Shown here: positions 1 to 14,556 of the stretch, one piece after another | Numbering within the stretch: the stretch's first letter is position 1 | Layout: each line of letters opens with the position of its first letter | From: Zymomonas sp. | Lineage (GTDB): Bacteria > Pseudomonadota > Alphaproteobacteria > Sphingomonadales > Sphingomonadaceae | Direction: 5' to 3' | Length of the DNA: 14,556 nucleotides | NCBI RefSeq assembly: GCF_020216885.1 | Contig: NZ_JAIWON010000074.1 | Location: 1-14,556, forward strand | Position numbers and translations under genes: made by a program | Notes under the pieces: model-generated | What the model was told of the DNA's origin: nothing | What the model saw: only the letters and a program-made list of their open reading frames with translations | The model's database searches: none

Positions 1-679
1 TGCCGAAAAAGACGGGCTTATTTTTCATTCCCTGATGGCACGACTAAGTTGTAACAATTTTGCCGAATGGGCACTTATTCCGGCCTTCGTCTTTTTCTTC
101 CAGATGTTGTATCCTTTTCGGCATATCAATAATCCCAAGCATAAAACGGCCGGTGCTGCCGGTGGATGTATGTTAGCCGATCGTGCCAGTCTTGAAAAAG
201 CAGGTGGGATAGGCGCTATCCGTCATGCTATTATTGATGATTGCAGCCTTGGCGGCATTATGAAAAAGCAAGGGAAAATCCGGCTTTCTTTAACAAACCG
301 TTCATTGAGTATCCGACCCTATTTAGGGTTTCAGGAAATTGGTCACATGATTTCCCGTTCAGCTTATGCTCAATTACGATATTCTTTCTGGCTATTGGCA
401 TTGACATTATTCGGGATGTGCCTTGTTTATCTGGTACCGCCTGCTTTGGCTTTGCTGACCCATGGTGTATCGGCTTGGATTGGTCTGGCTGGATGGATGA
501 TGATGGCATTAGCCTTTCAACCCATATTACATTTTTATCACCGCTCTCCTCTTTGGGGTTTAGCGCTTCCCTTAATTGCGGCCTTTTATAGCTGTGCGAC
601 ATTTTTTTCTGCCGTGCATGTCTGGCAAGGGCGAGGCGGTATGTGGAAGGGGCGTGCGCAAGCACGTATAGGTCTGTGA
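1..679 (+). CDS. hpnB: HpnB, hopanoid-associated glycosyltransferase (C-terminal part)
   Basis: The reading frame is open from base 2 to the TGA at 677-679, so only the last ~225 residues are in the window. The ATG at 35 is internal. HpnB is a family 2 glycosyltransferase-like membrane protein found in hopanoid loci; its exact step is not settled, and head-group modification is an inference. The visible part matches the family: the stretch FFFQMLYPFR, the AAGGCML segment, an acidic IDDC motif, the QLRYS segment, and WQGRGG followed by WKGRAQA near the end. Two or three hydrophobic membrane segments lie roughly between window positions 380 and 625. The gene runs straight into hpnC, with overlapping ends, as first visible gene of the squalene/hopene operon. 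The N-terminal catalytic half is outside the window. Confidence 0.9.
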   Translation, partial: AEKDGLIFHSLMARLSCNNFAEWALIPAFVFFFQMLYPFRHINNPKHKTAGAAGGCMLADRASLEKAGGIGAIRHAIIDDCSLGGIMKKQGKIRLSLTNRSLSIRPYLGFQEIGHMISRSAYAQLRYSFWLLALTLFGMCLVYLVPPALALLTHGVSAWIGLAGWMMMALAFQPILHFYHRSPLWGLALPLIAAFYSCATFFSAVHVWQGRGGMWKGRAQARIGL

Positions 680-1536
680 ATATTAAAACAAAAAATAAGC
701 TAAATGCAGCCGCTTTGGTTTCTGGAAAAGGGCATCAGGATGAAAATTTTCCAGTGGCCTCTTTTCTGATCAATCCTGAATATCGGCCTATTATTATGGC
801 GTTTTATCAGTTTGCTCGCCAAGCTGATGATGTCGCCGATAATGTGATCGCAAGCAAAAAAGATCGCTTGGCTATCCTTGAGGATATGCGCAGCAGTCTA
901 ACAGGCGAAAGCCAGAGCGAGCCTAATGCCGTTGTCTTGCGCCAGACGTTGATAACGCATGGTCTCGATCATACGATCGTCCATGGTCTTGATCTGTTGG
1001 AAGCTTTCCGGCGTGATGTATCCGTCAATCGTTACGAAAATTGGGACGCTTTGCTAGATTATTGCCGTTATTCGGCTTCTCCTGTTGGGCGCTTCGTTTT
1101 GGATGTCCATAAGGAATCCCGTAACCTTTGGCCCATGAATGATGCTTTATGCACGGCATTACAGGTCATCAATCATCTTCAGGATTGCGGTAAAGACTAT
1201 CGCATGATGAACCGTATTTATATCCCAAGTGATATTATGGAAGCGGTTGGTGCTACCGCTGGCGATTTGGGACGTTTTCATGCCTCATTGCCTTTACGTC
1301 AGGCAATTGAGACGGCTGCCTTGAAAACAAAATCTCTTTTGAAACGGTCGTCCGGTTTTTCTGCAGCTATTCACGACAAGCGGTTGGGGGTTGAAGTCGC
1401 GGTTATCCAGCGCTTGGCGGAAAGCCTGACCGAATGTTTAATGAAGCATGATCCGCTATCCGAACGGGTTCACCATAATAAAGCTGAAACTTTGGGACTG
1501 GCCTTTGTCGCCGCCGCAGGGAGATTATTTTCTTAA
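643..1536 (+). CDS. hpnC: HpnC, hydroxysqualene synthase
   Basis: A squalene/phytoene synthase-fold enzyme that turns presqualene diphosphate (from HpnD) into hydroxysqualene in the HpnC-D-E route. The first aspartate motif DDVAD is at residues 62-66. The second region carries LQDCGKD (D181, D185), the altered form typical of HpnC rather than of true squalene synthase. The family signature SGKGHQDENFPVAS is at residues 27-40. Length (297 aa) is normal. Start choice is uncertain. GTG at 643 has GAGG six bases upstream and overlaps hpnB by 37 bp. GTG at 676 overlaps the hpnB stop as GTGA but lacks a well-placed ribosome binding site. Both keep the whole conserved domain. The stop shares one base with the hpnD start (TAATG), implying translational coupling. 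Confidence 0.93.
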   Translation: MEGACASTYRSVNIKTKNKLNAAALVSGKGHQDENFPVASFLINPEYRPIIMAFYQFARQADDVADNVIASKKDRLAILEDMRSSLTGESQSEPNAVVLRQTLITHGLDHTIVHGLDLLEAFRRDVSVNRYENWDALLDYCRYSASPVGRFVLDVHKESRNLWPMNDALCTALQVINHLQDCGKDYRMMNRIYIPSDIMEAVGATAGDLGRFHASLPLRQAIETAALKTKSLLKRSSGFSAAIHDKRLGVEVAVIQRLAESLTECLMKHDPLSERVHHNKAETLGLAFVAAAGRLFS

Positions 1537-2411
1537 TGACTTCGGCCATGAAAAAGATTCAGCCAGAGGCCTTTTCCGAAAAATCATCGGATAGCCAAGC
1601 TTCGGCCAGCGGCGCAAAAAGCAGTAGCTTCTATATCGGTATGCGGGTTTTGCCGCCAGCCGAGCGGGAAGCAATGTATGCTGTTTACAATTTCTGTCGC
1701 CAAGTCGATGACATTGCCGATGATCTGGAAGGCAGCCAAGAGGAAAGAAAGAAAGCGCTTGACGCGTGGCGTCATGATATCAATGCCCTTTATTCAGGTG
1801 ATCCCTGTGGCCAAGCTGCTTTTCTTAAAGAACCGGTTGCCCGTTTCCATTTGAGACAGGAAGACTTTATTGCCGTTATTGACGGTATGGCTATGGATTT
1901 GAAGGGGCCTATCATCTTCCCTGATGAAGCAACCCTTGATCTTTATTGTGATCGCGTTGCTTCGGCTGTCGGGCGGCTGTCTGTCTATGTTTTTGGCATG
2001 GATCCCAATATAGGGGAATCTTTAGCTTATCATTTGGGGCGGGCTTTACAGTTAACCAATATCTTGCGCGATATTGACGAAGATGCTGAAATAGGGCGTT
2101 GTTATCTGCCTCGGGAGCCGCTTGAAAAAGCCGGTATTCCACTGGATATTGAAAAAGCCTTGGCTGATCCACGGTTGGACAAGGTTTGCCGTGATATCGC
2201 TTGGCAGGCCGAAGGGCATTATGCCGCATCAGATCATATCATTCATAATCGCCCTAAAGGCTATTTGATTGCGCCTCGTTTGATGGCAGCAGCCTATTCG
2301 GCATTGTTACGTAAAATGTTGGCACAAGGGTGGAAAAATCCTCGGAAGAAAGTCAAACATAACAAGCTCGCCCTTTTATGGACTTTGCTTAGATTGAAGG
2401 TGACTTCATGA
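1536..2411 (+). CDS. hpnD: HpnD, presqualene diphosphate synthase
   Basis: Condenses two farnesyl diphosphates head-to-head into presqualene diphosphate, the first committed step of the hopanoid branch. It is a squalene/phytoene synthase-family protein of 291 aa. The first aspartate-rich motif DDIAD is at residues 58-62. The second, NILRDIDED, is at residues 175-183, followed by the family's GRCYLP at 187-192. These are the Mg-diphosphate binding motifs. The YCDRVASAVG segment at 137-146 is also characteristic. Start is the ATG in the TAATG junction with hpnC, with AGGGA about 13 bases upstream; an in-frame ATG four codons on is possible. It overlaps hpnE by four bases (ATGA). Its residues differ from HpnC at the second motif, supporting distinct reactions. 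Confidence 0.94.
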   Translation: MTSAMKKIQPEAFSEKSSDSQASASGAKSSSFYIGMRVLPPAEREAMYAVYNFCRQVDDIADDLEGSQEERKKALDAWRHDINALYSGDPCGQAAFLKEPVARFHLRQEDFIAVIDGMAMDLKGPIIFPDEATLDLYCDRVASAVGRLSVYVFGMDPNIGESLAYHLGRALQLTNILRDIDEDAEIGRCYLPREPLEKAGIPLDIEKALADPRLDKVCRDIAWQAEGHYAASDHIIHNRPKGYLIAPRLMAAAYSALLRKMLAQGWKNPRKKVKHNKLALLWTLLRLKVTS

Positions 2412-3652
2412 GTGTAACGCATATTATCGGGGCGGGGCTGGCTGGGTTATCTGCCGCGGTAGCGATTACCTATGCCGGAGGACGCGTCAAAATTTATGAA
2501 GCCTCGGCTATGGCTGGGGGGCGGGCGCGTTCTTATCATGATAAAAAGCTGGGGATTGAAATTGACAATGGCAATCATATGCTGCTGTCAGGAAATCATT
2601 CTGCCGAGACCTATTTGAGAAGAATAGGGGCAGAGCATCGCTTTAAAAGCCCAAAAGAGGCTGCCTTTTCTTTTTGTGATCTAAGTGACAAAGAACGCTT
2701 TACCATAAAATTAAGCAATGGCTTTGTGCCGTGGTGGGTTTTATGCGCCAAAAGCCGCGTTCCCCATAGCAAAGCCAAGGATTATTTAGCGTTATTGTCG
2801 CTGTTATTGGCAGATCATAATACCAAGATAGGCGATATTATCCCTGATAATACGGCTTTATGGCGTAAATTGCTTGATCCTTTTTTTGTTTCGGTTCTCA
2901 ATACACCGGCAAAAGACGGGGCAGCTTGTCTTGCGGCGGCGGTTATTCGGGAAACTTTGATGAAGGGGGGAAAGGCTTGCATCCCCCGCATTGCCTATCC
3001 CAATTTAGCAAGTAGTTTTATTGATCCTGCGCTTGACTATCTGAAAGCCAGAGGGGTGGAAGTCGATTACCGTAACCGTTTGCGTCAAATCCATTTTTCG
3101 GGACAAGATGTTACCTCTTTGGAATTTGCCCATCAGGATATAAAACTGGAAAAAGGCGATAAGGTTATTATCGCTTTGCCTGCTTGGGTCGTTCAGTCCT
3201 TGATACCGGATATCGAAACGCCGGATAAATATCAGGCGATTATTAACGCTCATTTCTTGATGAAGCCTACTGCCGCTATGCCTCATATTATGGGTGTTGT
3301 GGGAGGAACGGCTGATTGGATTTTCACTTTTGAAAATCGGATATCGGTTACGATCAGCGCCGCTAATCATTTATTGGCGCTTGAAAAAGAAGAACTGGTT
3401 AAGCGTATCTGGGATGATATTCAGACCGTTTATGCTTTCAAGCAGGATATGCCTGAATGGCAGGTCGTGACTGAAAAAAGAGCCACTTTTGAAGCGACTG
3501 TTGATCAGAATAATCGTCGTCCACCGGCTGTTACGGCATGGAATAACCTGTTTTTAGCCGGAAATTGGGTGAGAACAGGCCTTCCTGCGACTATTGAAAG
3601 CGCTATCCGATCCGGTCAGACCGCGGCTGATCTCGCTTTATCCCATTCATAA
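2408..3652 (+). CDS. hpnE: HpnE, hydroxysqualene dehydroxylase (FAD amine-oxidase family)
   Basis: An FAD-dependent oxidoreductase of the amine oxidase/phytoene desaturase fold, 414 aa. In the HpnC-D-E pathway it reductively removes the hydroxyl of hydroxysqualene to give squalene. The N-terminus has the dinucleotide-binding motif IIGAGLAGLSAA (GxGxxG at residues 8-13), with an acidic residue ending the second strand (KIYEAS). The C-terminus has the FAD-closing motif LFLAGNWVRTGLPATIESA (about residues 381-399), typical of the family. The ATG lies in an ATGA overlap with the hpnD stop, so translation is probably coupled. Fifteen bases separate its stop from shc, so they are almost certainly cotranscribed. 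The product feeds shc directly. Confidence 0.93.
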   Translation: MSVTHIIGAGLAGLSAAVAITYAGGRVKIYEASAMAGGRARSYHDKKLGIEIDNGNHMLLSGNHSAETYLRRIGAEHRFKSPKEAAFSFCDLSDKERFTIKLSNGFVPWWVLCAKSRVPHSKAKDYLALLSLLLADHNTKIGDIIPDNTALWRKLLDPFFVSVLNTPAKDGAACLAAAVIRETLMKGGKACIPRIAYPNLASSFIDPALDYLKARGVEVDYRNRLRQIHFSGQDVTSLEFAHQDIKLEKGDKVIIALPAWVVQSLIPDIETPDKYQAIINAHFLMKPTAAMPHIMGVVGGTADWIFTFENRISVTISAANHLLALEKEELVKRIWDDIQTVYAFKQDMPEWQVVTEKRATFEATVDQNNRRPPAVTAWNNLFLAGNWVRTGLPATIESAIRSGQTAADLALSHS

Positions 3653-3667
3653 TTAGAAAGCCTATAC

Positions 3668-5644
3668 ATGACTGTATCGACTTCCTCGGCTTTTCATCAT
3701 AGCCCGTTGTCTGATGATGTTGAGCCGATTATCCAAAAGGCCACCCGTGCCTTGCTCGAGAAGCAGCATCAGGATGGCCATTGGGTTTTTGAATTGGAAG
3801 CTGATGCAACCATTCCCGCTGAATACATATTGTTAAAGCATTATTTGGGTGAACCCGAAGATTTAGAAATAGAGGCCAAGATAGGTCGCTATTTGCGTCG
3901 TATTCAGGGCGAACATGGTGGATGGCCTTTGTTTTATGGTGGTGTTCTTGATTTGAGCGCCACGGTTAAAGCCTATTTTGCCTTGAAAATGATCGGCGAT
4001 TCTCTTGACGCGCCTCATATGCTTAAGGCAAGAAATGAGATTTTGGCACGGGGCGGAGCGATGCGTGCCAATGTTTTTACACGTATCCAATTGGCTTTGT
4101 TCGGGGCAATGTCATGGGAGCATGTCCCTCAAATGCCCGTAGAGTTGATGTTGATGCCGGAATGGTTTCCGGTTCACATCAATAAAATGGCCTATTGGGC
4201 AAGAACCGTTTTAGTCCCGTTATTGGTTTTACAGGCGTTAAAGCCTGTCGCCCGTAATCCGCGCGGTATCTTGGTTGATGAATTATTTGTGCCAGATGTT
4301 TTGCCGACTCTTCAGGAAAGCGGTGACCCGATATGGCGTCGTTTTTTTTCGGCGCTTGATAAGGTATTGCATAAAGTAGAACCTTATTGGCCGAAAAATA
4401 TGCGTGCGAAGGCTATTCATAGCTGTGTCCATTTTGTAACCGAGCGTTTGAATGGTGAAGACGGGTTGGGTGCTATTTATCCGGCGATTGCCAATAGTGT
4501 CATGATGTATGATGCCTTGGGATATCCCGAAAGCCATCCAGAAAGAGCCATTGCCCGTCGGGCTGTCGAAAAATTGATGGTGTTAGATGGCACCGAAGAT
4601 CAGGATGATAAAGAAGTCTATTGTCAGCCTTGTTTGTCACCGATTTGGGATACAGCCTTGCTTGCCCATGCCATGTTGGAAGTCGGAGGCGATGAGGCCG
4701 AAAAATCGGCTATTTCTGCCCTGAGCTGGTTAAAACCGCAACAAATTTTAGATGTAAAGGGTGATTGGGCCTGGCGGCGGCCTGATGTCCGACCTGGGGG
4801 ATGGGCCTTTCAATATAGAAATGACTATTATCCCGATGTCGATGATACGGCTGTTGTGACTATGGCCATGGATCGAGCCGCAAAATTATCTGATGTCAGC
4901 GATGATTTTGAAGAATCCAAAGCGCGTGCCATGGAATGGACCATTGGGATGCAAAGCGATAATGGCGGTTGGGGCGCATTTGATGCCAATAACAGTTATA
5001 ATTATCTGAATAATATTCCCTTTGCTGATCATGGCGCGTTACTTGATCCGCCAACGGTCGATGTCTCGGCACGCTGTGTTTCGATGATGGCGCAAGCCGG
5101 TATCTCGATTGCAGATCCTAAAATGAAAGCGGCGGTTGATTATCTTCTGAAAGAACAGGAAGAGGATGGTAGCTGGTTCGGGCGTTGGGGTGTTAATTAC
5201 ATATATGGCACGTGGTCGGCCTTATGTGCATTGAATGTGGCAGCTTTGCCTTATGACCATTTGGCTATCCGTAAAGCGGTAGCTTGGTTAAAAGCTATTC
5301 AAAATAAAGACGGTGGCTGGGGTGAAAATTGCGATAGTTATGCCCTTGATTATAGCGGATATGAGCCGATGAATTCGACGGCTTCTCAAACAGCATGGGC
5401 TTTATTGGGCTTGATGGCTGTTGGGGAGGCAAATTCTGAGGCAGTAACAAAGGGTATAAATTGGCTGGCACAAAATCAAGATGAAGAAGGGTTGTGGAAA
5501 GAAGATTATTATAGCGGGGGTGGTTTTCCCCGTGTTTTTTATCTTCGATATCACGGCTATTCCAAATATTTTCCTCTTTGGGCTTTAGCGCGCTATCGCA
5601 ATTTGAAAAAAGCCAATCAGCCGATTGTTCATTATGGGATGTAA
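3668..5644 (+). CDS. shc: Squalene-hopene cyclase (HpnF)
   Basis: Cyclises squalene to hopene and hopanol at the membrane. At 658 aa it has normal family length and matches in size the long-known Zymomonas cyclase. The catalytic acid motif DVDDTA is at residues 390-395, with D392 the expected proton donor. Several QW repeats are visible: QHQDGHW near 33, GEHGGW near 81, DNGGWGAFD at 431-439, EEDGSWFGRWG at 498-508, IQNKDGGWGE at 544-553 and QDEEGLW at 604-610. The GGGFPRVFYLRYHGY segment near the C-terminus is also typical. The upstream AGAAAG is a weak ribosome binding site, consistent with coupling to hpnE 15 bases away. A strong terminator follows. No residue looks damaged. Confidence 0.97.
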   Translation: MTVSTSSAFHHSPLSDDVEPIIQKATRALLEKQHQDGHWVFELEADATIPAEYILLKHYLGEPEDLEIEAKIGRYLRRIQGEHGGWPLFYGGVLDLSATVKAYFALKMIGDSLDAPHMLKARNEILARGGAMRANVFTRIQLALFGAMSWEHVPQMPVELMLMPEWFPVHINKMAYWARTVLVPLLVLQALKPVARNPRGILVDELFVPDVLPTLQESGDPIWRRFFSALDKVLHKVEPYWPKNMRAKAIHSCVHFVTERLNGEDGLGAIYPAIANSVMMYDALGYPESHPERAIARRAVEKLMVLDGTEDQDDKEVYCQPCLSPIWDTALLAHAMLEVGGDEAEKSAISALSWLKPQQILDVKGDWAWRRPDVRPGGWAFQYRNDYYPDVDDTAVVTMAMDRAAKLSDVSDDFEESKARAMEWTIGMQSDNGGWGAFDANNSYNYLNNIPFADHGALLDPPTVDVSARCVSMMAQAGISIADPKMKAAVDYLLKEQEEDGSWFGRWGVNYIYGTWSALCALNVAALPYDHLAIRKAVAWLKAIQNKDGGWGENCDSYALDYSGYEPMNSTASQTAWALLGLMAVGEANSEAVTKGINWLAQNQDEEGLWKEDYYSGGGFPRVFYLRYHGYSKYFPLWALARYRNLKKANQPIVHYGM

Positions 5645-5688
5645 AAGGCTGATTTTATAACCTGTTGGTAATGAAATACGTCTAAATC

Positions 5689-5720
5689 AAAATACGGCTG
5701 ATTTTTGGCCGTATTTTTTT
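5689..5720 (+). terminator. Intrinsic terminator after shc
   Basis: A perfect 10-bp inverted repeat, AAAATACGGC (5689-5698) and GCCGTATTTT (5708-5717), encloses a nine-base loop and ends in a run of seven T (5714-5720). It lies 44 bases after the shc stop and 64 bases before the hpnG start. It should end most transcripts of the hpnB-shc operon, leaving hpnG on its own promoter or on read-through. Confidence 0.88.
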
Positions 5721-5722
5721 GT

Positions 5723-5757
5723 ATCATCATATTGTTTTTATAAAATATTGTGATGAT
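5723..5757. repeat. AT-rich inverted repeat in the hpnG leader
   Basis: Perfect 7-base arms ATCATCA (5723-5729) and TGATGAT (5751-5757) flank an AT-rich centre that itself pairs imperfectly. It falls between the shc terminator and the hpnG ribosome binding site, where the hpnG promoter must lie. It could be an operator or a leader hairpin. I could not define -35/-10 boxes with confidence. Confidence 0.4.
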
Positions 5758-5783
5758 TAGCAGGGTATTATGAAGGAAAAAAT

Positions 5784-6461
5784 ATGCTGAACCATATCCT
5801 TGCTGTGACCGGAATAGATCGTGAAGCACGGGCGGCGGCGCAATGTGAAAAAGTTTTGTCTCTGGCAGGGGGAGGGGATAGTGTTCGCCTCGAAGAATCT
5901 TTGCGCCGAATTATGCAGGAAAACACGATTTCCGGTTTAGTGAGTTTTGGTTTGGCTGGCGCTTTGGATTCTGATTTAAAAGTAGGCGATTGGGTAGTCG
6001 GAAGCCATTTAACAGGGAATGTCGAGGCCGATTGCGATGAAGCATGGCAAGACTCGCTTGAGAAAATTTTCCCTACATTGAAAAAGGGAATAGTTTATTC
6101 AGATGGCACTCTTGTTTCCGATATTGCCCAGAAACAAGACATTCAAAAAAAACAAAAGGCTATCGCCGTTGACATGGAATCCCATATCGTCGCCCGAATA
6201 GCCCAAGAATATCATTGTCCATTTATTATTTTAAGAGTGATTTCAGATCAGGCCGATCATGCTCTACCGCCCGCTTTTTCGGTGGCGATGCAACCTGATG
6301 GCAGCGTCGCAATACCGGCCTTACTGAAATCATTGCTATTGAAACCGAGCCAAATACCGGCTTTCGTCACGACAGCAAAGGCCGCAACGAAAGCCTTGAA
6401 AGAGTTAGGCCGCGTCGGTTTCATTTTTGGCAGCAGCCTCGGATTCCCTGATTTCAGCTAA
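5784..6461 (+). CDS. hpnG: HpnG, adenosylhopane nucleosidase/phosphorylase
   Basis: Related to MTA/SAH nucleosidases and purine nucleoside phosphorylases. In hopanoid makers HpnG removes adenine from adenosylhopane, the product of HpnH, to give the ribosyl hopane used for extended hopanoids. The 225-residue protein shows the family's FGLAGAL segment (55-61), VDMESHIVARIA (129-140) and the purine-site motif ISDQADHALPP (153-163), whose aspartates fit the proton donor site. An acidic residue near the N-terminus (E14) sits where the MTAN family uses a glutamate. Start ATG has AAGGA six bases upstream. It lies beyond the shc terminator. Its last 18 codons and stop overlap the 3' end of hpnH on the other strand; that tail looks non-conserved. 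Confidence 0.9.
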   Translation: MLNHILAVTGIDREARAAAQCEKVLSLAGGGDSVRLEESLRRIMQENTISGLVSFGLAGALDSDLKVGDWVVGSHLTGNVEADCDEAWQDSLEKIFPTLKKGIVYSDGTLVSDIAQKQDIQKKQKAIAVDMESHIVARIAQEYHCPFIILRVISDQADHALPPAFSVAMQPDGSVAIPALLKSLLLKPSQIPAFVTTAKAATKALKELGRVGFIFGSSLGFPDFS

Positions 6462-7550
6462 ACGCTGCTGAACGTGATCGGAGAATACATCCTTGGCACG
6501 GCGCTGATTGGCAAGGCTGATATCCGGTGCCATCGCACCTTCTGTTTTGATGCCTTTTAAAGCGACCATCGCAGCTTTCAGCGGATGGCGAACCGTATCG
6601 ATAACAGCGGTCGCCTCAAAGCCGGAATGAACCATGCAGTCTTGGCATTTTTCATAATTGCCAACGCCGTAATCATCCCAAGCCGTATTTTCCATAAGGT
6701 CTTTGAAGCTTTTGGCGTAATCTTCGCCTAAAAGGTAGCAAGGACGCTGCCAACCAAAGACAGTACGGGTCGGATTGCCCCAAGGCGTGCATTTATAGGT
6801 TTCGTTACCAGCCAAGAAGTTCAAGAATTGAATGGACTGGTTGAATGGCCATTTATGACCTTTGCCCAAACGGAAAATATTGCGGAACAGGTTTTTCGTG
6901 GTGGTGCGGTTCAGGAATTCATCCTGATTGGCAGCCCGTTCATAGGCGTAACCCGGAGAAACCGTGATGCCGTCAATACCGATAGCCTTCATGCGATCAA
7001 AGAATTTAGCCGTCCGTTCTGGATTGGCATCGTTGAAGAGCGTGCAGTTGATCGAAACCTGAAAACCACGGGATTTAGCAAGACGAATAGCGGCTTCCGC
7101 TGTTTCATAGACACCGTCTAAAGAAACAGAACGGTCATGCATTTCCTTGTCACCATCAAGATGGATTGACCAAGTAAAATTGGGGCGCGGTTCATATTGA
7201 TCGACCTTCTTTGCAAAAAGCAAAGCATTGGTGCAGCAAATAACGAATTTGCCTTTATCAAGAGCGCCTTTGACAATTTTAGGCATGTCGCGATGAAGCA
7301 GCGGTTCACCACCCGCGATAGAAACCACCGGAGCGCCGCATTCATCAATGGCCTGCATACATTCGTCATAAGACAAACGCTGGTTCAGAATTTCTTTGGG
7401 GTAATCGATTTTACCGCAGCCCTGACAAGCAAGATTGCAGCGGAAAAGCGGTTCAAGCATTAAAACCAGAGGATAACGCGTTGTCCCTTTGATATGATTA
7501 CCGAGGATGTAGGAACCAATCCGTAAAACCTGACTAAAAGGAATACCCAA
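6405..7550 (-). CDS. hpnH: HpnH, radical SAM adenosylhopane synthase
   Basis: A radical SAM enzyme that adds the 5'-deoxyadenosyl group of SAM to hopene (diploptene), giving adenosylhopane. The cluster-binding motif CNLACQGC is at residues 38-45 (C38, C42, C45, a CX3CX2C spacing). The GGEP SAM-binding motif is at 80-83. The C-terminal half has cysteines in a CTPWGNP segment, CYLLGEDY and CQDC, plausibly a second cluster or structural region. Length (381 aa) is normal. The start is TTG, preceded by a perfect AGGAGG eight bases upstream inside the last codons of ispH. It follows ispH by three bases in the same frame. Its 3' end overlaps hpnG by 57 bp, and the two genes act in successive steps. 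Confidence 0.94.
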   Translation of the reverse strand: MGIPFSQVLRIGSYILGNHIKGTTRYPLVLMLEPLFRCNLACQGCGKIDYPKEILNQRLSYDECMQAIDECGAPVVSIAGGEPLLHRDMPKIVKGALDKGKFVICCTNALLFAKKVDQYEPRPNFTWSIHLDGDKEMHDRSVSLDGVYETAEAAIRLAKSRGFQVSINCTLFNDANPERTAKFFDRMKAIGIDGITVSPGYAYERAANQDEFLNRTTTKNLFRNIFRLGKGHKWPFNQSIQFLNFLAGNETYKCTPWGNPTRTVFGWQRPCYLLGEDYAKSFKDLMENTAWDDYGVGNYEKCQDCMVHSGFEATAVIDTVRHPLKAAMVALKGIKTEGAMAPDISLANQRRAKDVFSDHVQQRLAEIRESEAAAKNETDAA

Positions 7551-7553
7551 GGC

Positions 7554-8576
7554 TCAAGCCTCCTGTTCTGTATCGTTAGAGAGACTGTCCGCCTCTTCTG
7601 AAGCAGCAGTTTTGTTATCTAAATTGTTATGTGCCGCATTGCGGGCTTTGAGATGACGCAGAGTTGGCGGCAAGCGGAAAGCAATCTTCTCTTCGACACC
7701 GTCAAGCTGCTCTACAGTGACAGAGCCTAGAGCGCGGATAGCGGTGATAACGCTTTGCACCAATTCTTCTGGTGCAGAAGCCCCAGCCGTTAATCCGACT
7801 GTATTGATACCTTCAAACCAAACAGGGTCAATTTCGCTGCCATCGGCGATCAGATAGCTGGGAAGACCTTCTTCTAAGCCAATTTCGCGTAAACGGTTGG
7901 AATTTGAGCTGTTTGGTGAACCGACAACCAAAATGAGATCGGATTGTTTGCAAAGATCTCTGACAGCCGCTTGCCGATTCTGGGTCGCGTAACAAATATC
8001 CGAGGTATCGGGCCCAATGACATCTGTAAATTTTTTGCGCAATGCGGCGATAACCGAGCGGGTATCATCAACAGAAAGCGTTGTCTGGGTGATGAAAGCG
8101 ACCGGCGTATCGGACGGAATGTCAAGGCTGTCTACCTGTTCGGCAGAACCGACAAGATGAACAGGCCCATCAATCTGGCCTAAGGTGCCTTCGATTTCAG
8201 GGTGACCGGCATGGCCAATTAAAATCAAAGTCCGTCCATGAGAAAGATAGCGTCGGCCTTGCGCATGCACTTTGTTTACCAAAGGACAGGTTGCATCGAC
8301 TACCGGCAAGCCGCGTTCTTCGGCTTCCTTTTGAACGGTACGAGCAACGCCATGCGCACTGAAAACAGTGACTTCGCCGGGGGGAACTTCGGAGAGTTCT
8401 TCGACAAAGACAGCGCCTTTTGCCTTTAATGTATCGACAACATGACGATTATGAACGATTTCATGGCGAACATATACAGGCGCTCCGACACGGTCTAATG
8501 CCTGATCGACAATTTCGATAGCACGGATCACGCCGGCACAGAAGCCACGCGGTTGAGCCAGAATGATTTTTATCAC
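7554..8576 (-). CDS. ispH: IspH (LytB), HMBPP reductase
   Basis: The last enzyme of the MEP pathway, an iron-sulfur protein that reduces HMBPP to IPP and DMAPP in the cytoplasm. The three cluster cysteines are present: C13 (PRGFCAGV), C97 (DATCPLV) and C195 ([10 protein letters not shown]). So are the substrate histidines H42, H75 (SAHGV) and a third in GHAGHPE with E127, and the [10 protein letters not shown] segment at 220-229. The core matches the usual ~310 residues, followed by an extra acidic, Asn-rich tail of about 30 residues. The start is GTG with GGGA about seven bases upstream. It leads an operon with hpnH, linking precursor supply to hopanoid extension; both enzymes need 4Fe-4S clusters. 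Confidence 0.96.
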
Positions 8577-8608
8577 AAACAGTCCCGATTTTGGATGTTC
8601 TTAATTCT

Positions 8609-8639
8609 AGACCTTGCAAGTCTAACCTGACACAGGTCT
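8609..8639. repeat. Nested inverted repeats in the ispH leader
   Basis: Outer arms AGACCT (8609-8614) and AGGTCT (8634-8639) enclose two smaller symmetries: CTTGCAAG (8613-8620) and ACCTG-ACA-CAGGT (8625-8637). In the ispH transcript this could fold 30-65 bases before the GTG start; as DNA it could be an operator. No T-run follows, so it is not an intrinsic terminator. Confidence 0.4.
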
Positions 8640-8640
8640 G

Positions 8641-8657
8641 TATCTATTTTATAGATA
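8641..8657. repeat. AT-rich palindrome upstream of ispH
   Basis: TATCTA (8641-8646) and TAGATA (8652-8657) form a perfect inverted repeat around TTTTA, directly next to the nested repeats at 8609-8639. Its place and size fit an operator or a promoter -10 region for ispH, but no regulator can be named. Confidence 0.35.
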
Positions 8658-9071
8658 ATTCTAAAGCAGATAACGCATAATGTAGCATAGAAACGGCAGA
8701 TTTCGTGTGAATTATGTATAAAAAACACAGTATTTTCAGATGTTGAGGTCAAAAACGGAAACTCAACCCTTTTTTTGACGTTTTTTTTCATCAAGGCATA
8801 ATGAAGCATTTTTTGTGAAGGATTAGACAAAAAGTTCTAAACCGGCGATGAGTGAAGGGAAGGATGCTTGTTTCAAGGTTATTGTTCTTTCCTCGTTCAT
8901 TAGATGCTTTTTAAAAAGACATATTAAACCAATGGAAGAAAGCCGACGGGAAAATCAGGATATTCCATTTCCATTATTTCCGGCATTTTTATAAATGGGA
9001 GATAAGTAAGAAATGTGGAATCGTATTTTGCCTCTTTCCATATTCATGTGAATTGAAGAGTAGGATTTTTT

Positions 9072-9662
9072 ATGGCTTTAAAATTAAGAAATATAATACC
9101 CGCTATTTTGGTGACGGTAGCGCCGGTTGCAGCCTTTGCTCAAGCGAGCGATCCTGCCGCCACCCAAATTGACGCCTATCACAATGCTATTATCGAAATC
9201 ATGAAGCAGGGAAAAAGCCTTGGAATTTCTGGCCGGATAACACGCTTTGAAACCTTGGTTCATGACTATTATGACATGCCAACCATGACCTCTTTGGTTG
9301 TTGGATCTGGTTGGTCTTCAGCTTCCCAAGCGGATCGCGATCAGGCTATTGCGGCTTTAGAACATCATAGTGCCGTTATGTTGGCCAGCAATTTTGTTAG
9401 CTATGGCGGTGAACAGTTTAAAACCGAACTACCTGTTACCAGCCGTGGTTCTGATAAGTTGGTGCGGGCAACGATTACGAGCGATAAGCTGATTTACCGG
9501 ATGCGTTTTAGTCAGGGTAAATGGAGAATCGTCGATATTATCTCGGATGGTGTCAGCCAGTTAGCGGTTCAGCGTGCTGACTTCTCTTCGACGGTTGCTT
9601 CTAATGGTATTCCGGGGCTGGTTCATAAATTGGCAGTGATTGATGCCAAAACCATGAAATAA
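9072..9662 (+). CDS. hpnM: HpnM/MlaC-family periplasmic lipid-transport protein
   Basis: A 196-residue member of the MlaC/Ttg2D (toluene tolerance) family. These periplasmic proteins carry lipids between inner and outer membranes. The N-terminus is a clear Sec signal: basic residues at 4-6, a hydrophobic stretch, then VAAFA with likely cleavage after residue 23. Family features include the Tyr-rich helix FETLVHDYYDMPTM, the YRMRFSQGKWRIVDII strand pair and the C-terminal ISDGVSQLAVQRADFSS then GIPGLVHKL. Next to ispH/hpnH, the HpnM subfamily of hopanoid loci is the best fit. Plain MlaC is the alternative, since no mla ABC genes are adjacent. AGGA lies six bases before the ATG. Transcribed away from ispH. 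Confidence 0.8.
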   Translation: MALKLRNIIPAILVTVAPVAAFAQASDPAATQIDAYHNAIIEIMKQGKSLGISGRITRFETLVHDYYDMPTMTSLVVGSGWSSASQADRDQAIAALEHHSAVMLASNFVSYGGEQFKTELPVTSRGSDKLVRATITSDKLIYRMRFSQGKWRIVDIISDGVSQLAVQRADFSSTVASNGIPGLVHKLAVIDAKTMK

Positions 9663-9723: not shown

Positions 9724-10053
9724 TTAGTCTTTTAAACGCGCTGCCAAAACCTCAAGCGGGATATGTTTGACAGCTTCAAGACGATCATCGGCCTGTAAGA
9801 TATCCGCGATGATAGCAAGCCTTTGTGTAATATGATCGAAATCCTGCAAAACAGAGACATGATTTTCGACAACATAGCTATCGCCGCATAATATCACTGA
9901 CAGATGTTCGACATCATGGCGCACCAAAGCGACTTCGGCGGCCAGCTTTTTAAATAAAAGGGTGGTTGCCCGATTATTTTTGCACAAATCTCCGGAACAG
10001 GGACGAGCCTGTTCCGGATTGAGAAATTTTTTATCTGGTTTTATTTCTGACAT
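9724..10053 (-). CDS. Small helical protein with CheZ-like DxxxQ motif
   Basis: Not a family I can name with certainty. The 109-residue protein has no signal peptide or membrane segment. After a polar N-terminus with two cysteines (C19, C24) it looks like two helices (about 30-56 and 60-88) joined by a short turn, then a C-terminal segment IPLEVLAARLKD. Helix two contains LQDFDHITQRL, with D73 and Q77 in the DxxxQ spacing that CheZ phosphatases use (E. coli CheZ has AQDFQDLTGQ). The final amphipathic segment recalls CheZ's CheY-binding tail. Its ATG overlaps the cheB stop by 13 bp with no strong ribosome binding site, so translation is probably coupled and a chemotaxis role likely. CheY phosphatase function is inference. 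Confidence 0.75.
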   Translation of the reverse strand: MSEIKPDKKFLNPEQARPCSGDLCKNNRATTLLFKKLAAEVALVRHDVEHLSVILCGDSYVVENHVSVLQDFDHITQRLAIIADILQADDRLEAVKHIPLEVLAARLKD

Positions 10054-11066
10054 TTAGCAAGAACCACAGAGGCGATATCGCCGATAGCGACCTCCTGATC
10101 GATAACTTTGGCATCGCGAGCAGCGCGGGGGGCATCACCAGCAATGGCAGTTTCCTGATCTTGAGCAAAAGTGAAAGCGCCACTAGCTTTTAATGCCCTC
10201 ATTCCAGCAACGCCATCATCACCAACCCCCGTCAAAATACCGGCAACAACATCATCTTTGGCGGTTTTTGCAAGGGCTGCAAATAGCAAGCTGGCGCTAG
10301 GGCGGTGTCCTTGAACCGGTTCCTTGGGAAGCAGGCGAATGGTCGGATCAGGCCAACGGTCAATAACCACATGGTTATTGGTGTCGCTGGCAATATAGAT
10401 CACGCCTTGTTTTAATTTTGCACCATCTTTGGCCAGTTTGACCTGAGGTTTGATAGCAGAACCCAAACGAGTCAGATAAATTTCGGTAAAACTATCGTCC
10501 AAAGGTTGCACAATAAGGGTCGGGGGGCAGTTCGCCGGAAATTCCGGTAAAATGTCAAGCATTGCATCCACGCCACCCGTTGAGGTCGCAAGGGCAATCA
10601 TCTTGCCATTCCATTCCAGTTCGTCTTTGGCAACCTTGCGCTGTCTGGTCTTTTTACGGATTTTACCGCCAGCCGCAGCAACAATCAGTTCGGCTAGTTT
10701 AGGCCCAAGTTTTTTGAAAACTTCTAGAGTCACATTCTGAGGTTTCGGGAAGCATTCAAATGCGCCCAGTTCCAAAGCACGCAGTGAAATTTCTGCACCA
10801 CGCTGGGTCAGCGTCGAAAGCATGATGACCGGCATTGGCCGTTCTTTCATGATTTCTTCGAGAAATTCGATACCGCTCATTCCCGGCATTTCGACGTCAA
10901 GCGTAATGACCTGGGGTGATAATTCTGCAATACGTTCCCGTGCTTCATCTGCATTCGCCGCGACGCCGACAACCTGAATATTATCAAAGCTGTCCAGCAC
11001 CTCGGAAAAGAGGGTGCGCATGGTGAGAGAATCATCAACAATTAAAACGCGAACAGGATCGCTCAT
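10041..11066 (-). CDS. cheB: CheB-type response regulator/methylesterase, catalytic His replaced
   Basis: CheB resets chemoreceptors by removing methyl esters from glutamates. The receiver domain (about 1-120) is intact: D11-D12, phospho-acceptor D57, S84-T85 and K108-P109. The effector domain (about 153-341) has the serine motif TSTGGVDAM with S162, the LTGVGDDGVAGM motif with D284, and GHRPSAS near 253-259. The catalytic histidine, normally in a (V/I)VQH segment, is proline here: IVQP, P188, codon CCT at 10503-10505. By family knowledge this should strongly impair methylesterase activity. AAAGGGA six bases upstream supports the ATG. It follows cheA after a 357-base AT-rich gap and overlaps the small downstream gene. 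Length is normal and there is no frameshift. Confidence 0.93.
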   Translation of the reverse strand: MSDPVRVLIVDDSLTMRTLFSEVLDSFDNIQVVGVAANADEARERIAELSPQVITLDVEMPGMSGIEFLEEIMKERPMPVIMLSTLTQRGAEISLRALELGAFECFPKPQNVTLEVFKKLGPKLAELIVAAAGGKIRKKTRQRKVAKDELEWNGKMIALATSTGGVDAMLDILPEFPANCPPTLIVQPLDDSFTEIYLTRLGSAIKPQVKLAKDGAKLKQGVIYIASDTNNHVVIDRWPDPTIRLLPKEPVQGHRPSASLLFAALAKTAKDDVVAGILTGVGDDGVAGMRALKASGAFTFAQDQETAIAGDAPRAARDAKVIDQEVAIGDIASVVLAKCQK

Positions 11067-11423: not shown

Positions 11424-13097
11424 TTAACTGTATTTGTGCGGGTTTAATAAGGAGTCTATGTCAATAACTAGAGCCGTTCGACCTTCTTGTAGGAAAGCGA
11501 CCCCACTAATACCGTGCACAGCTTGGAAATTTTTTTCGAGGCTTTGAACTAAAAGCTGTCTTTGGCTTTCAAGAGCATCAACGATAATCATCACTTCTGG
11601 TTGGTGAATCATCGGGTCAATTCTGATTAGGATTTTTTGGCCTGTCTTAAAAGAAGCCTGTGTGAAATTTTCCTCTCCCAATAAAGCAGAAAGTGCAATA
11701 GCGGGAAACCATTGATCCCGTAATTGGATCATTGACTGTCTTTCATCCACCCAATGAATATCTTCTGCCTTGACCGCGATACTTTCGACGATATCGGAGA
11801 TAGGCAGGATATAGCTTTGATCTTTGACGGTAGTAATCAGACCTTCAACCATTGTTTGATTAAGGGGTAAAAGCATCGTGACCCGCGTGCCTAAACGGGG
11901 AGGGGCATAGATGCGTATTTCCCCCTTCAGTGACTGGACAATATCCTTGACGGTCGCAAAGCCGCCTTTCCCATGATGCGAAGCATGGCCTTCAAAAGAC
12001 TGCGCTTCGTTTTCCTTTCCATCTGGAGCATCTTTGTCTGCAATTATGCCGTATTGTTCGGCGATTTTGACCAGTTTTTCCCACAGAATACCACGCCCAT
12101 CATCGGCGATAATGATCTTTAAGCGGCTAGCATGATAGCGGGCTTCTAAGCGAATATGACCTTCGCGCGGTTTACCGATTTCCTGACGTGTTTCGCTTTC
12201 TTCAATGCCATGAAAGGCCGCATTGTCGACGAGTTCAAGTAACGCCTTGCCAAGATCAATGACAATCCGTTTGTCGATTTTGATGTCAGAGCCGATAACC
12301 GAAAAAATGATATTTTTGTGATTATTGCCGCCTCTTTGCTTAATGATATCAATGACTTGTCTAAAAAGCGGCTCGATAGTCTGAGTCTGGAGCGCCATGG
12401 CATAATTATTGGCCGATTGGATCAATTGATCCAATTTTTCGAGCGCATTGACCCGACCGGATTTTTCATCTGAAAGGCTATGAGTAAGACTTAATTCTGA
12501 ACGAATGCTAAGCATTTCGTGGAATATATCGAATAAATTGTCCAGTTTTTCAGGATTAACTGGAATATGCGGTTCAAGACTGCCTTCAACGTGAAGCGTT
12601 TCCTCTGCTGCATTCTGATGGATGCGCGTTACGGGATCATCGGCAACCAGAGCGCTTTGGGATAGAATAACTTCTGGCTTGTCTATAGTGATTTCATGGC
12701 CGACTTTTTTAATCGCATATTGAGAAGAATGGGCAATTGTCTTTTGTAATTCTTCTTCAATCTGAGTCTGGTCAGACGGAATTTGTTTTTCTGTAATTGC
12801 CAGAATGTAATTTTCGATCGTATCAAAACTACGCTGGATAAGATCAATTAAGAACAGATTTAACGCTAAGCGATCTTTGCGGATCGCTTCTATCAGTTGA
12901 GCCAGCAAAAAAGTTAACTGAACTAATGCTATTTCCTCATTGCCGGAGGCCTGATTATTCAGTTCTTTTATTGCCATTTCCAGACGGAGCAAACATTTGC
13001 TGTCGTAGATACCAGCCTGACAGGCCTTTAGATCATTTTCGATCGTTTTTTTTTGGGCTTGCCATAAAGTAAACAGTTTTTTTTCGGGCTGTGTCAT
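11424..13097 (-). CDS. cheA: CheA-like protein lacking the P1 phospho-histidine
   Basis: CheA is the chemotaxis histidine kinase that joins receptors to CheY/CheB. Layout of the 557 residues: a P1-like helical domain (about 1-105), a linker without a clear P2 domain, the P3 dimerisation helices (about 181-252), a P4 ATPase domain (about 262-412) and a CheW-like P5 domain (about 413-550). P1 has no histidine at all; the first in the protein is H123. M41, in EMAIKEL, sits where AHTIKG is expected. In P4 the N-box reads LLELVDNAAFHGIE, keeping N292 but with E288 for the usual histidine. DDGRGI (332-337) and GKGG (376-379) remain, while the F-box PGFST is missing. P5 looks complete (ILPISDIVESI). 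It may be a pseudokinase, scaffold or specialised variant. It follows the receptor gene by 221 bases. Confidence 0.9.
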   Translation of the reverse strand: MTQPEKKLFTLWQAQKKTIENDLKACQAGIYDSKCLLRLEMAIKELNNQASGNEEIALVQLTFLLAQLIEAIRKDRLALNLFLIDLIQRSFDTIENYILAITEKQIPSDQTQIEEELQKTIAHSSQYAIKKVGHEITIDKPEVILSQSALVADDPVTRIHQNAAEETLHVEGSLEPHIPVNPEKLDNLFDIFHEMLSIRSELSLTHSLSDEKSGRVNALEKLDQLIQSANNYAMALQTQTIEPLFRQVIDIIKQRGGNNHKNIIFSVIGSDIKIDKRIVIDLGKALLELVDNAAFHGIEESETRQEIGKPREGHIRLEARYHASRLKIIIADDGRGILWEKLVKIAEQYGIIADKDAPDGKENEAQSFEGHASHHGKGGFATVKDIVQSLKGEIRIYAPPRLGTRVTMLLPLNQTMVEGLITTVKDQSYILPISDIVESIAVKAEDIHWVDERQSMIQLRDQWFPAIALSALLGEENFTQASFKTGQKILIRIDPMIHQPEVMIIVDALESQRQLLVQSLEKNFQAVHGISGVAFLQEGRTALVIDIDSLLNPHKYS

Positions 13098-13318: not shown

Positions 13319-14556
13319 TTAGTTTGTTTTCTCATTTTTTCCTAGATGAAAACGTTCCAAAGCGGTGCCGAGCAGGTCAATCGCTTCGACAATATTCCGA
13401 GAAGCTTCGGTTGATTGCTCAACAATAACGCCGCCTTGTTGCGTTATTTGTTCGGTATTTTTAACGGTTGCAGCGGCGTTTTGCAGCTCTTGTGATTGAG
13501 ATACGGCTGATAGTGAAATATCATGAGCTTGCCGGTTAACGGATTCGATACTCTCTATAATTTCTTCAAAGGTTTTGCCGGTATTTTCAACGTGATTTTT
13601 TGTGATGCTAAGCTGTTTTAAACTGTCTTCAATAAGAGTTTTAATACCTGCAGCGGCTTCGGCTGAACGCTGTGCCAACGCCCGAACTTCGTTCGCAACA
13701 ACGGTAAATCCACGGCCTGCTTCACTGGCCTTCGCCGCTTCAATACTGGCATTTAAGGCCAAAAGATTAGTCTGAAATGCAATATCATCAATGAGGGTGA
13801 CGATATTGGAAATCTTTTTAGATGAGGCGGACAAAGCCTCCATGCTTTTGATGGCATCATAGGCGATACGACCACCTTCACCCGCTTTTTCCCGTGTTTC
13901 ATCAATGGATTTACTGACATCCTTTGCCTGTAAAGCGGTATTTTTAGCCGCTTCGGCAATATGATTCATGGTATTGGTCGCATCACCTAATGTTTGGATT
14001 TGATGATGGCTGGCATCGGTCAAAGATTGTGAAAAACGACCGATATTATGCGCTTCTGATTTGGCGCGATGAGCGATTTCAATGACTTGGGCAATAACAC
14101 CCGCTAAGCTAGAACGCATAATGGCGAAGTCATTCGCGATCGCGGCATAGTTTTTCGGGATATGTTCCAGAACGACATCAAAATTTTGTTCGGCCATCTG
14201 GTTGAGGGCTTTGCTCAAGCTCGTCAGGATAGTGTTCCGTTCCTGACGCTCGTAATCCAGATAATTAGACAGAACAATTTCAATATCAAGAAGCGTTAAT
14301 TTGACTAAAGAGCCAATTGTATCGGCTAATTTGCGGTTGAGAAACAAACCTGCCGCTGAGGATTTTATTGCCCGCGTAATTAACTGTTCCAAATTAACAG
14401 CATAGGCGCTGATATAATAGGTGGGTGTTACCCCGATTTGGGCATGAATGGCGCCGATTTTTTTGGAAGTTTCCTCACTTTTTTTATCGAAAGGTAAGGT
14501 AAACCACGAGAGCCAATGCGCTAGCTGCTTCTTTTTTGCCTTTTCAATCGCGTCTT
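13319..14556 (-). CDS. Globin-coupled methyl-accepting chemotaxis protein (N-terminus missing)
   Basis: The frame stays open to the window edge, so 411 C-terminal residues are visible; TTG at 14392 is internal. The first ~100 visible residues match the end of a protoglobin sensor domain: HWLSWF, then IGAIHAQIGVTPTYYISAY, whose histidine (codon 14444-14446) fits the haem proximal ligand of HemAT-type sensors, then the last helix LLDIEIVLSNYLDYER. A cytoplasmic signalling domain follows with the hairpin DIAFQTNLLALNASIEAAK and EVRALAQRSAEAAAGI. No membrane segment or HAMP domain is visible, so it is probably a soluble oxygen or redox sensor. The hairpin tip reads EAAKASEAGRG instead of the usual EAARAGExGRG. 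No C-terminal CheR/CheB-docking pentapeptide. Its stop lies 221 bases upstream of cheA. Confidence 0.9.
   Translation of the reverse strand, partial: DAIEKAKKKQLAHWLSWFTLPFDKKSEETSKKIGAIHAQIGVTPTYYISAYAVNLEQLITRAIKSSAAGLFLNRKLADTIGSLVKLTLLDIEIVLSNYLDYERQERNTILTSLSKALNQMAEQNFDVVLEHIPKNYAAIANDFAIMRSSLAGVIAQVIEIAHRAKSEAHNIGRFSQSLTDASHHQIQTLGDATNTMNHIAEAAKNTALQAKDVSKSIDETREKAGEGGRIAYDAIKSMEALSASSKKISNIVTLIDDIAFQTNLLALNASIEAAKASEAGRGFTVVANEVRALAQRSAEAAAGIKTLIEDSLKQLSITKNHVENTGKTFEEIIESIESVNRQAHDISLSAVSQSQELQNAAATVKNTEQITQQGGVIVEQSTEASRNIVEAIDLLGTALERFHLGKNEKTN

Follow-up and report, generated by a model that had tools for sequence, protein, structure and literature searches.

A predicted CheA pseudokinase of Zymomonas as a probable structural or regulatory part of the chemoreceptor array

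Introduction

CheA is the enzyme central to chemotaxis pathways, and DxxxQ is the motif of CheZ. Several proteins described in the literature come close to the locus presented in this work. R. sphaeroides CheA4 is a known CheA without a P1 domain which works in trans (PMC3591291; PMC3964821); its P4 domain is active (PMC3591291), and it illustrates that atypical CheAs do enter arrays (PMC3964821). E. coli CheA-short, a form of CheA without the phospho-accepting His, is able to recruit CheZ to arrays (PMC7696710). In Alphaproteobacteria, the pseudokinase DivL, no longer active as a kinase, binds DivK-P (PMC4211667). The DxxxQ motif has been reported for CheT as well (PMC12654446), the globin receptor HemAT of B. 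subtilis senses oxygen and ethanol (PMC7542364), and for Z. mobilis the che cluster ZMO0078-ZMO0085 has been described (PMC8594446).

In this study we describe CheA2, a second CheA paralogue of Zymomonas, encoded in a stretch of DNA of 14,556 nucleotides (the window). The open-licence papers searched held no account of a second Zymomonas CheA, nor of a CheA pseudokinase, nor of the CheB2 case treated below. Four Zymomonas genomes were compared (n = 4), namely the window's own (G000), G001, AN0101 (G002) and G003; the whole CheA2 case is built on sequence and prediction, with these four orthologues.

Results

Domain layout of CheA2

The gene and the parts of its product are as follows:

11424..13097, minus strand: CheA2, a CheA paralogue and predicted pseudokinase; open reading frame of 557 amino acids
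12729..13097, minus strand: P1-like five-helix bundle without phospho-His (residues 1-123)
12582..12728, minus strand: low-confidence, weakly conserved linker (residues 124-172)
12312..12581, minus strand: P3-like dimerisation hairpin (residues 173-262), from PDB sequence matches, predicted model and fold match
11859..12311, minus strand: P4-like ATP-binding fold (residues 263-413)
11427..11858, minus strand: P5 domain, CheW-like and array-docking (residues 414-557)

Pfam recognises HATPase_c and CheW domains in CheA2, the latter being the CheW-like P5 domain, and gives no Hpt match for CheA2; the Hpt model fails on the N-termini of the orthologues as well. In a sequence search against PDB chains, P3-P4-P5 of CheA was matched with a best E of 3.5e-38, and a fold search matched the CheA P3-P4 and P5 folds, while in the P3 region the Pfam H-kinase_dim model stayed below the cut-off and appeared in two orthologues only. 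The domain order P1-P3-P4-P5, with the P3-like hairpin counted as P3, is common to CheA2 and canonical CheA (Zymomonas CheA1, T. maritima, E. coli), no P2 domain being recognised in CheA2 by Pfam or in the comparison with canonical CheA. The mean identity to canonical CheA equals 15% for P1, 24% for P3, 33% for P4 and 27% for P5. The AF2 model, for which the input alignment had 22 rows, shows a mean pLDDT of 72.6, with ten-residue blocks of P1 at 76-93. A previous reading of this DNA from the sequence only had called the gene full length with P5 kept, which agrees with the CheW match and with the 557-residue frame, intact in all four Zymomonas genomes.

P1 domain and the missing phospho-His

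Within P1, the following positions are of importance:

12966..12968, minus strand: codon 44 (AAA, Lys), the phospho-His position by profile alignment and superposition; Thr in G003
12975..12977, minus strand: codon 41 (ATG, Met), the site preferred by the sequence-only reading, three residues ahead of the likely site
12792..12857, minus strand: P1 helix D (residues 81-102), the best-conserved helix of P1, with 14/22 residues invariant in the four orthologues

The sequence-only reading claimed a CheA-like P1 domain without the phospho-accepting His, and this is confirmed: His is absent from residues 1-122, and residue 44 is K, K, K and T in the window's own genome, G001, AN0101 and G003, respectively, i.e., Lys or Thr in 4/4 orthologues. 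Codon 41 is Met, as had been said, and a re-read gave no His. For the lost site itself, Met 41 and Lys 44 had both been offered, and it is the second that stands. A profile-profile alignment of the four Zymomonas CheA2 N-termini with 17 sphingomonad P1 domains ran across 100 columns without a gap (Prob 96.6, E 5e-10; an unrelated control reached Prob 0.3), and the canonical His falls at CheA2 residue 44 in another alignment, of 51 rows, as well. Superposed on three solved P1 domains, the predicted P1 showed the five-helix fold at 1.6-2.2 A, with CheA2 residues 1-103 on T. maritima P1 2-104 (1.6 A), residues 1-127 on Salmonella P1 5-133 (1.9 A) and residues 1-126 on R. sphaeroides CheA3 P1 8-136 (2.2 A). 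The phospho-sites of these three domains are, as we take them, His45, His48 and His51, and since the superposed ranges agree with these positions, the phospho-position corresponds to residue 44, the structural agreement being judged by the offset of the aligned ranges. As far as alignment and model go, the lost phospho-site of CheA2 is K44; M41, three residues early, is rejected, since alignments free of gaps and the offsets between the superposed structures both point to K44. H45 of G003 was considered as a substitute acceptor and is not supported, as it is an adjoining residue in another position which is absent from the other three orthologues.

Searched against the PDB by sequence, the four-row CheA2 P1 profile, which is thin, found no CheA (best E 0.017, an unrelated protein), while a canonical P1 profile retrieved CheA P1 chains. 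In genomes, the CheA2 P1 profile matches canonical CheA P1 with up to 33.8 bits (E 1e-7). The P1 assignment stands because the profile-profile result, these genome matches and the five-helix fold, which P1 retains in the AF2 model, outweigh the failed PDB profile search and the failed Pfam Hpt model. The stretch 77-98, which overlaps helix D, is invariant in 16/22 residues and equals the densest 22 residues of P1 (permutation p 0.04, marginal). Helix B, presumably the carrier of the phospho-His position and facing a receiver, is weakly conserved, with 7/20 residues invariant.

P4 domain: lost boxes and an unusual N box

Three features of P4 bear on catalysis:

11958..12050, minus strand: ATP-lid region, F box missing and G2 box eroded (residues 350-380; pLDDT mostly under 50)
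12198..12251, minus strand: altered N box (residues 283-300), ELVDNAAFHG against HLIRNAVDHG of CheA1; 15/18 invariant in the four orthologues
12234..12236, minus strand: E288 of the CheA2 N box, His in CheA1 and Glu in GyrB, ParE, MutL and one other HATPase protein

The F box and G2 box of CheA, as well as the P4 residues altered here, have an established role in ATP binding. Mapped on T. maritima CheA, CheA2 carries H405E, R408D, D412F and K462I, residues 486-494 of the T. maritima protein (with the F box) have no counterpart, and GRGVGMD has become GKG-GFA. The G2 region reads EKSG in AN0101 and G003, while SGRGVGMD is kept in 18/18 canonical CheA rows; the forms found among the CheA2 orthologues are GK-GGF or EK-SGF/SGL. 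The F box is gone and the G2 box eroded in all four. What is retained comprises a Pfam HATPase_c match above the cut-off, the N-box Asn N292 and the DDGRG of the G1 box; the equivalents of T. maritima N409 and D449 are kept as N292 and D332, which we take to be the Mg-binding Asn and the adenine-binding Asp. Judged by sequence, the kinase reaction seems to have lost its donor half as well as its acceptor half, and CheA2 is most likely a pseudokinase. The sequence-only reading had not named P4 as damaged.

It could be argued that CheA2 forms half of a split kinase, with P4 phosphorylating in trans the P1 domain of CheA1, after the pattern set by R. sphaeroides CheA4 acting on CheA3; the precedent of CheA4 speaks for this, as do the retained N292 and D332, and CheA1 offers a P1. 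We nevertheless hold it unlikely. A CheA4-type kinase requires an intact P4, and CheA2 appears to have lost the lid boxes in every orthologue, with the N-box His, Arg and Asp replaced; additionally, CheA2 keeps a P1 fold under selection, whereas CheA4 has no P1 at all. Since P4 is damaged too, a pseudokinase of this kind is unlikely to act as a CheA4-like kinase in trans.

Residues 273-294, the N-box stretch, are the best-conserved part of CheA2 (19/22 invariant), with ELVDNA near their end. Glu at the N-box place of E288 is, as we take it, the catalytic base in GHKL ATPases. The N boxes of the same genome read EVSDNA in GyrB, EVLDNA in ParE, ELVENA in MutL and HLIRNA in CheA1, and inspection by eye of its 16 HATPase_c proteins showed Glu at that place in five (CheA2, GyrB, ParE, MutL and L102), Asn in eight, His in one (CheA1) and Pro in one, while the remaining one, L099, is devoid of the N-box Asn. 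With T. maritima H405 now Glu, four residues before the Mg-binding Asn, P4 might have turned into a gyrase/MutL-type ATPase or a nucleotide sensor, and the likeness of ELVDNA to the N boxes of GyrB, ParE and MutL, in the most conserved stretch of the protein, is consistent with such a change. However, L102 (287 amino acids, with HATPase_c-type Pfam matches only), which is none of GyrB, ParE and MutL, carries Glu too, so the N-box Glu is not special to gyrase/MutL-type ATPases; hydrolysis is doubtful without an ATP lid, and the Asp three residues past the Asn is replaced by Phe or Leu. This conversion therefore appears very unlikely to us, while some nucleotide-linked role retained by P4 is possible and is regarded as a lead.

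A separate observation concerns L099 (985-1338, minus strand), histidine-kinase-like within an open frame of 797 amino acids, with a HATPase domain lacking the N-box Asn; by its sequence it is possibly a second pseudokinase of this genome.

Conservation, selection and range

CheA2 is open and full length in 4/4 Zymomonas genomes, with an identity to the window of 95% in G001, 79% in AN0101 and 56% in G003, and neither a stop nor a frameshift occurs in cheA2 in any of the four. The whole-gene dN/dS (Nei-Gojobori) equals 0.087 for window-G001 and 0.069 for window-AN0101, where dS is near saturation (it is saturated for G003); the corresponding values for P1 are 0.10 and 0.07, and in the closest pair (window-G001) every CheA2 domain lies at 0.05-0.13. 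In this pair, 14/20 changes in P1 are silent against 21% expected (p 4e-6), and over the whole gene silent codons number 79 and replacement codons 27 (p 9e-31). CheA2 is thus subject to purifying selection and not simply in decay. A functionless, decaying CheA2, a reading already disfavoured, would fit the rate of change, since, of eight proteins compared, CheA2 has changed fastest (its identity to G003 is 56%, whereas CheA1 has 82% and CheB2 95%) and its branch in the tree is very long. Given the low dN/dS in each domain, the excess of silent codons and the intact frames, we regard decay as highly improbable. The sequence-only reading had argued for a retained non-kinase or in-trans role rather than decay, and its retained, probably non-kinase part is supported by the low dN/dS and the four intact genes. 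The in-trans part is not supported, given the damage to the P4 lid and N box and the fact that the sole Hpt/P1 domain found by the Pfam model in the window's own genome (94.6% complete) is that of CheA1.

A contig scan for relatives of cheA2 returned AN0101 alone, genomes very near the window's own perhaps being left out. In a protein search (best 120 of 756 listed; 7991 candidates scored), three Zymomonas entries, one of them partial, ranked above canonical CheA. Among the matches listed in draws of 296, 397 and 385 genomes (partly overlapping, Zymomonas included), no CheA2 orthologue was found outside Zymomonas, the other matches being canonical CheAs. For the 296 Sphingomonadales genomes, the matches listed outside Zymomonas started at profile position 101 at least, in or before the canonical P3-P5 part. 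With the P1 profile, Zymomonas CheA2 reached 211-231 bits, whereas matches elsewhere stayed at 34 or below; these came from 22 other genomes among the 397 of the family and from 7 among the 385 of the class. HSIK was present in 12 of the 14 P1-profile loci inspected, own CheA1 included (11/13 outside Zymomonas), and the two loci without it look spurious, as one crosses stops and the other is a short piece lacking the motif. In the CheA tree, the CheA2 branch measures 6.9 changes per column, and a 100/100 branch sets CheA2 and the sphingomonad operon CheAs apart from the other 12 CheAs, which were taken from the protein search. CheA2 differs from the other sequences of this tree in its residue composition, and three CheA1 rows were entered full length. 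The date of the duplication that gave CheA2 cannot be inferred from so long a branch.

Genomic setting

The neighbours of cheA2 in the window are:

13319..14556, minus strand: globin-coupled chemoreceptor (protoglobin and MCP), MCPsignal by Pfam; upstream of cheA2, start codon beyond the window
10041..11066, minus strand: CheB2, a receiver with its Asp and a methylesterase domain without the catalytic His (Pfam, residue check)
9724..10053, minus strand: small helical protein with D73xxxQ77, a CheZ/CheT-like motif; the gene overlaps cheB2 by 13 bp

Apart from CheA2, the genome has a canonical che operon on contig C120 with MCP1, CheA1 (Hpt present), CheR, CheB1, CheD, CheY and CheW, which fits the cluster described for Z. 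mobilis. In 4/4 Zymomonas genomes, cheA2 is flanked by the globin-coupled receptor on one side and by cheB2 and the small gene on the other, in the same order. The three full-length receptor orthologues match Protoglobin with E of 1e-23 to 1e-27, as well as MCPsignal (Pfam). By analogy with HemAT, the receptor is possibly an oxygen or ethanol sensor, which is suggestive in an ethanol producer. Receptors matching it almost end to end adjoin che operons of three other sphingomonads (L053 12114-13652, L059 619-2169 and L064 1806-3632), hinting at an old link between globin receptors and the che locus. The rest of the window, 643-9662, is ordinary, with an MlaC-like gene, LytB, a radical SAM/DUF3463 protein and a phosphorylase-superfamily protein by Pfam; we also take open reading frames within this interval to be squalene/hopanoid genes.

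Of 24 CheB2 rows, 4 from Zymomonas and 20 from elsewhere, all retain the Asp of the receiver and that of the catalytic triad, while the catalytic Ser is lost in 8/24 and the His in 21/24, with at least one of these losses in every row. CheB1 keeps its Ser-His-Asp triad in 23/23 rows, a set which leaves out AN0101 CheB1. For the small protein, which is unannotated, DxxxQ is present in 22/22 rows, and the 19 rows aligned, from which the overlong frames L065, L066 and L068 were excluded, show no variation at D58, Q70, D73 and Q77. Its AF2 model has a pLDDT of 81 and helices at 22-56 and 66-87. Pfam gives no match for it, Foldseek gave no match of the model to CheZ, and the fold searches gave no CheZ link; by its motif it is a candidate, putative CheY-P phosphatase.

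For comparison, 20 che neighbourhoods were taken, spread over 19 further sphingomonad genomes and picked from the best CheB2 matches. CheB2 follows CheW in 10 of them and lies across CheA on the opposite strand in the other 10, and the small DxxxQ protein was recognised in 18/20, adjoining CheW or CheB2. In Zymomonas, neither was found in the inspected stretch of the che operon and both are at the CheA2 locus; we infer that the second locus arose by duplication or relocation with reciprocal loss.

Our main alternative is a sensor with reversed flow like DivL, in which a dead CheA2 would bind phosphorylated CheB2 or CheY and relay this state to CheA1 or the array. DivL provides the alphaproteobacterial precedent, cheB2 with its receiver Asp kept adjoins cheA2 in 4/4 genomes, and P1 domains can bind receivers (3kyj is a P1-CheY6 complex). 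The weak conservation of helix B and the lack of a recognised P2 domain point the other way, and we judge this sensor to be unlikely.

Discussion

From the sequences and the predicted structure, we consider it probable, with some reserve, that CheA2 is a catalytically dead CheA paralogue retained as a structural or regulatory part of the Zymomonas chemoreceptor array; a dimeric, P5-bearing, dead CheA would be compatible with such a part. CheA2 would dimerise via P3 and dock into CheW/receptor rings with P5, it would occupy kinase places without making phosphate and thereby tune CheA1 signalling, and the P1 helices, helix D above all, may serve as a protein-binding surface. In the variant that we favour, CheA2 would tether the small DxxxQ protein or CheB2 to the array, as CheA-short does with CheZ. 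This detail, suggested by analogy, by the DxxxQ gene two places downstream and by the conservation of helix D, is a tentative preference to which we give clearly less than even odds. The marginal significance of the helix D conservation (p 0.04) and the failure of the small protein's model to match CheZ in Foldseek count against it. Two points speak against an array role, or against its details. The best-conserved stretch is the N box at 273-294, suggesting that some nucleotide-linked function is left, and, to judge from the low identity to canonical CheA, P3 and P5 may have lost the ability to pair with CheA1 or CheW.

A bolder proposal would have a genus-specific module, in which two former enzymes would both have turned into scaffolds. 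One would be a CheA pseudokinase with a gyrase/MutL-like N box, an element of the array that binds or hydrolyses ATP without phosphotransfer, and the other a receiver-only CheB pseudo-esterase. The two would couple a globin receptor for oxygen or ethanol to a phosphatase like CheZ or CheT, and the signal would depend on CheY dephosphorylation instead of on phosphate production. Taken as a whole, we find it quite unlikely.

A CheA dead in both P1 and P4 and nevertheless maintained by selection would show that the role of a CheA in the array can be wholly non-enzymatic, for which parallels would be the eukaryotic pseudokinases and DivL in cell-fate control. Z. mobilis would be a tractable, non-pathogenic host for asking what non-kinase CheA subunits do in the receptor lattice. 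A second, wider lead is the pseudo-CheB, accompanied by a DxxxQ protein in the examined sphingomonad che loci.

Among known systems, CheT (S. meliloti / A. fabrum) and E. coli CheZ are, like the small neighbour of cheB2, small helical che-locus proteins with DxxxQ; unlike them, the neighbour is without a sequence-family match or a Foldseek match to CheZ, and its phosphatase role is putative. Compared with canonical CheA, CheA2 shares the P1, P4 and P5 folds and is without the phospho-His, the F box and a recognised P2, with G2 eroded and the N box altered. R. sphaeroides CheA4 resembles CheA2 in keeping a P3-P5 part (P3-like in CheA2) and in being unable, as is predicted for CheA2, to autophosphorylate on a P1 of its own; however, CheA4 has no P1 and an active P4, whereas CheA2 keeps the P1 fold and has a damaged P4. 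E. coli CheA-short is likewise a CheA form without the phospho-His, but it arises when an active kinase gene is read from an alternative start, while cheA2 is a gene of its own that has diverged and encodes a damaged P4. Caulobacter DivL, finally, is also an alphaproteobacterial pseudo-histidine-kinase with its phospho-His replaced; it is a PAS/DHp kinase with the N, G1, F and G2 boxes kept (PMC4211667), whereas CheA2, a member of the CheA class, is left without the F box and with little of G2.
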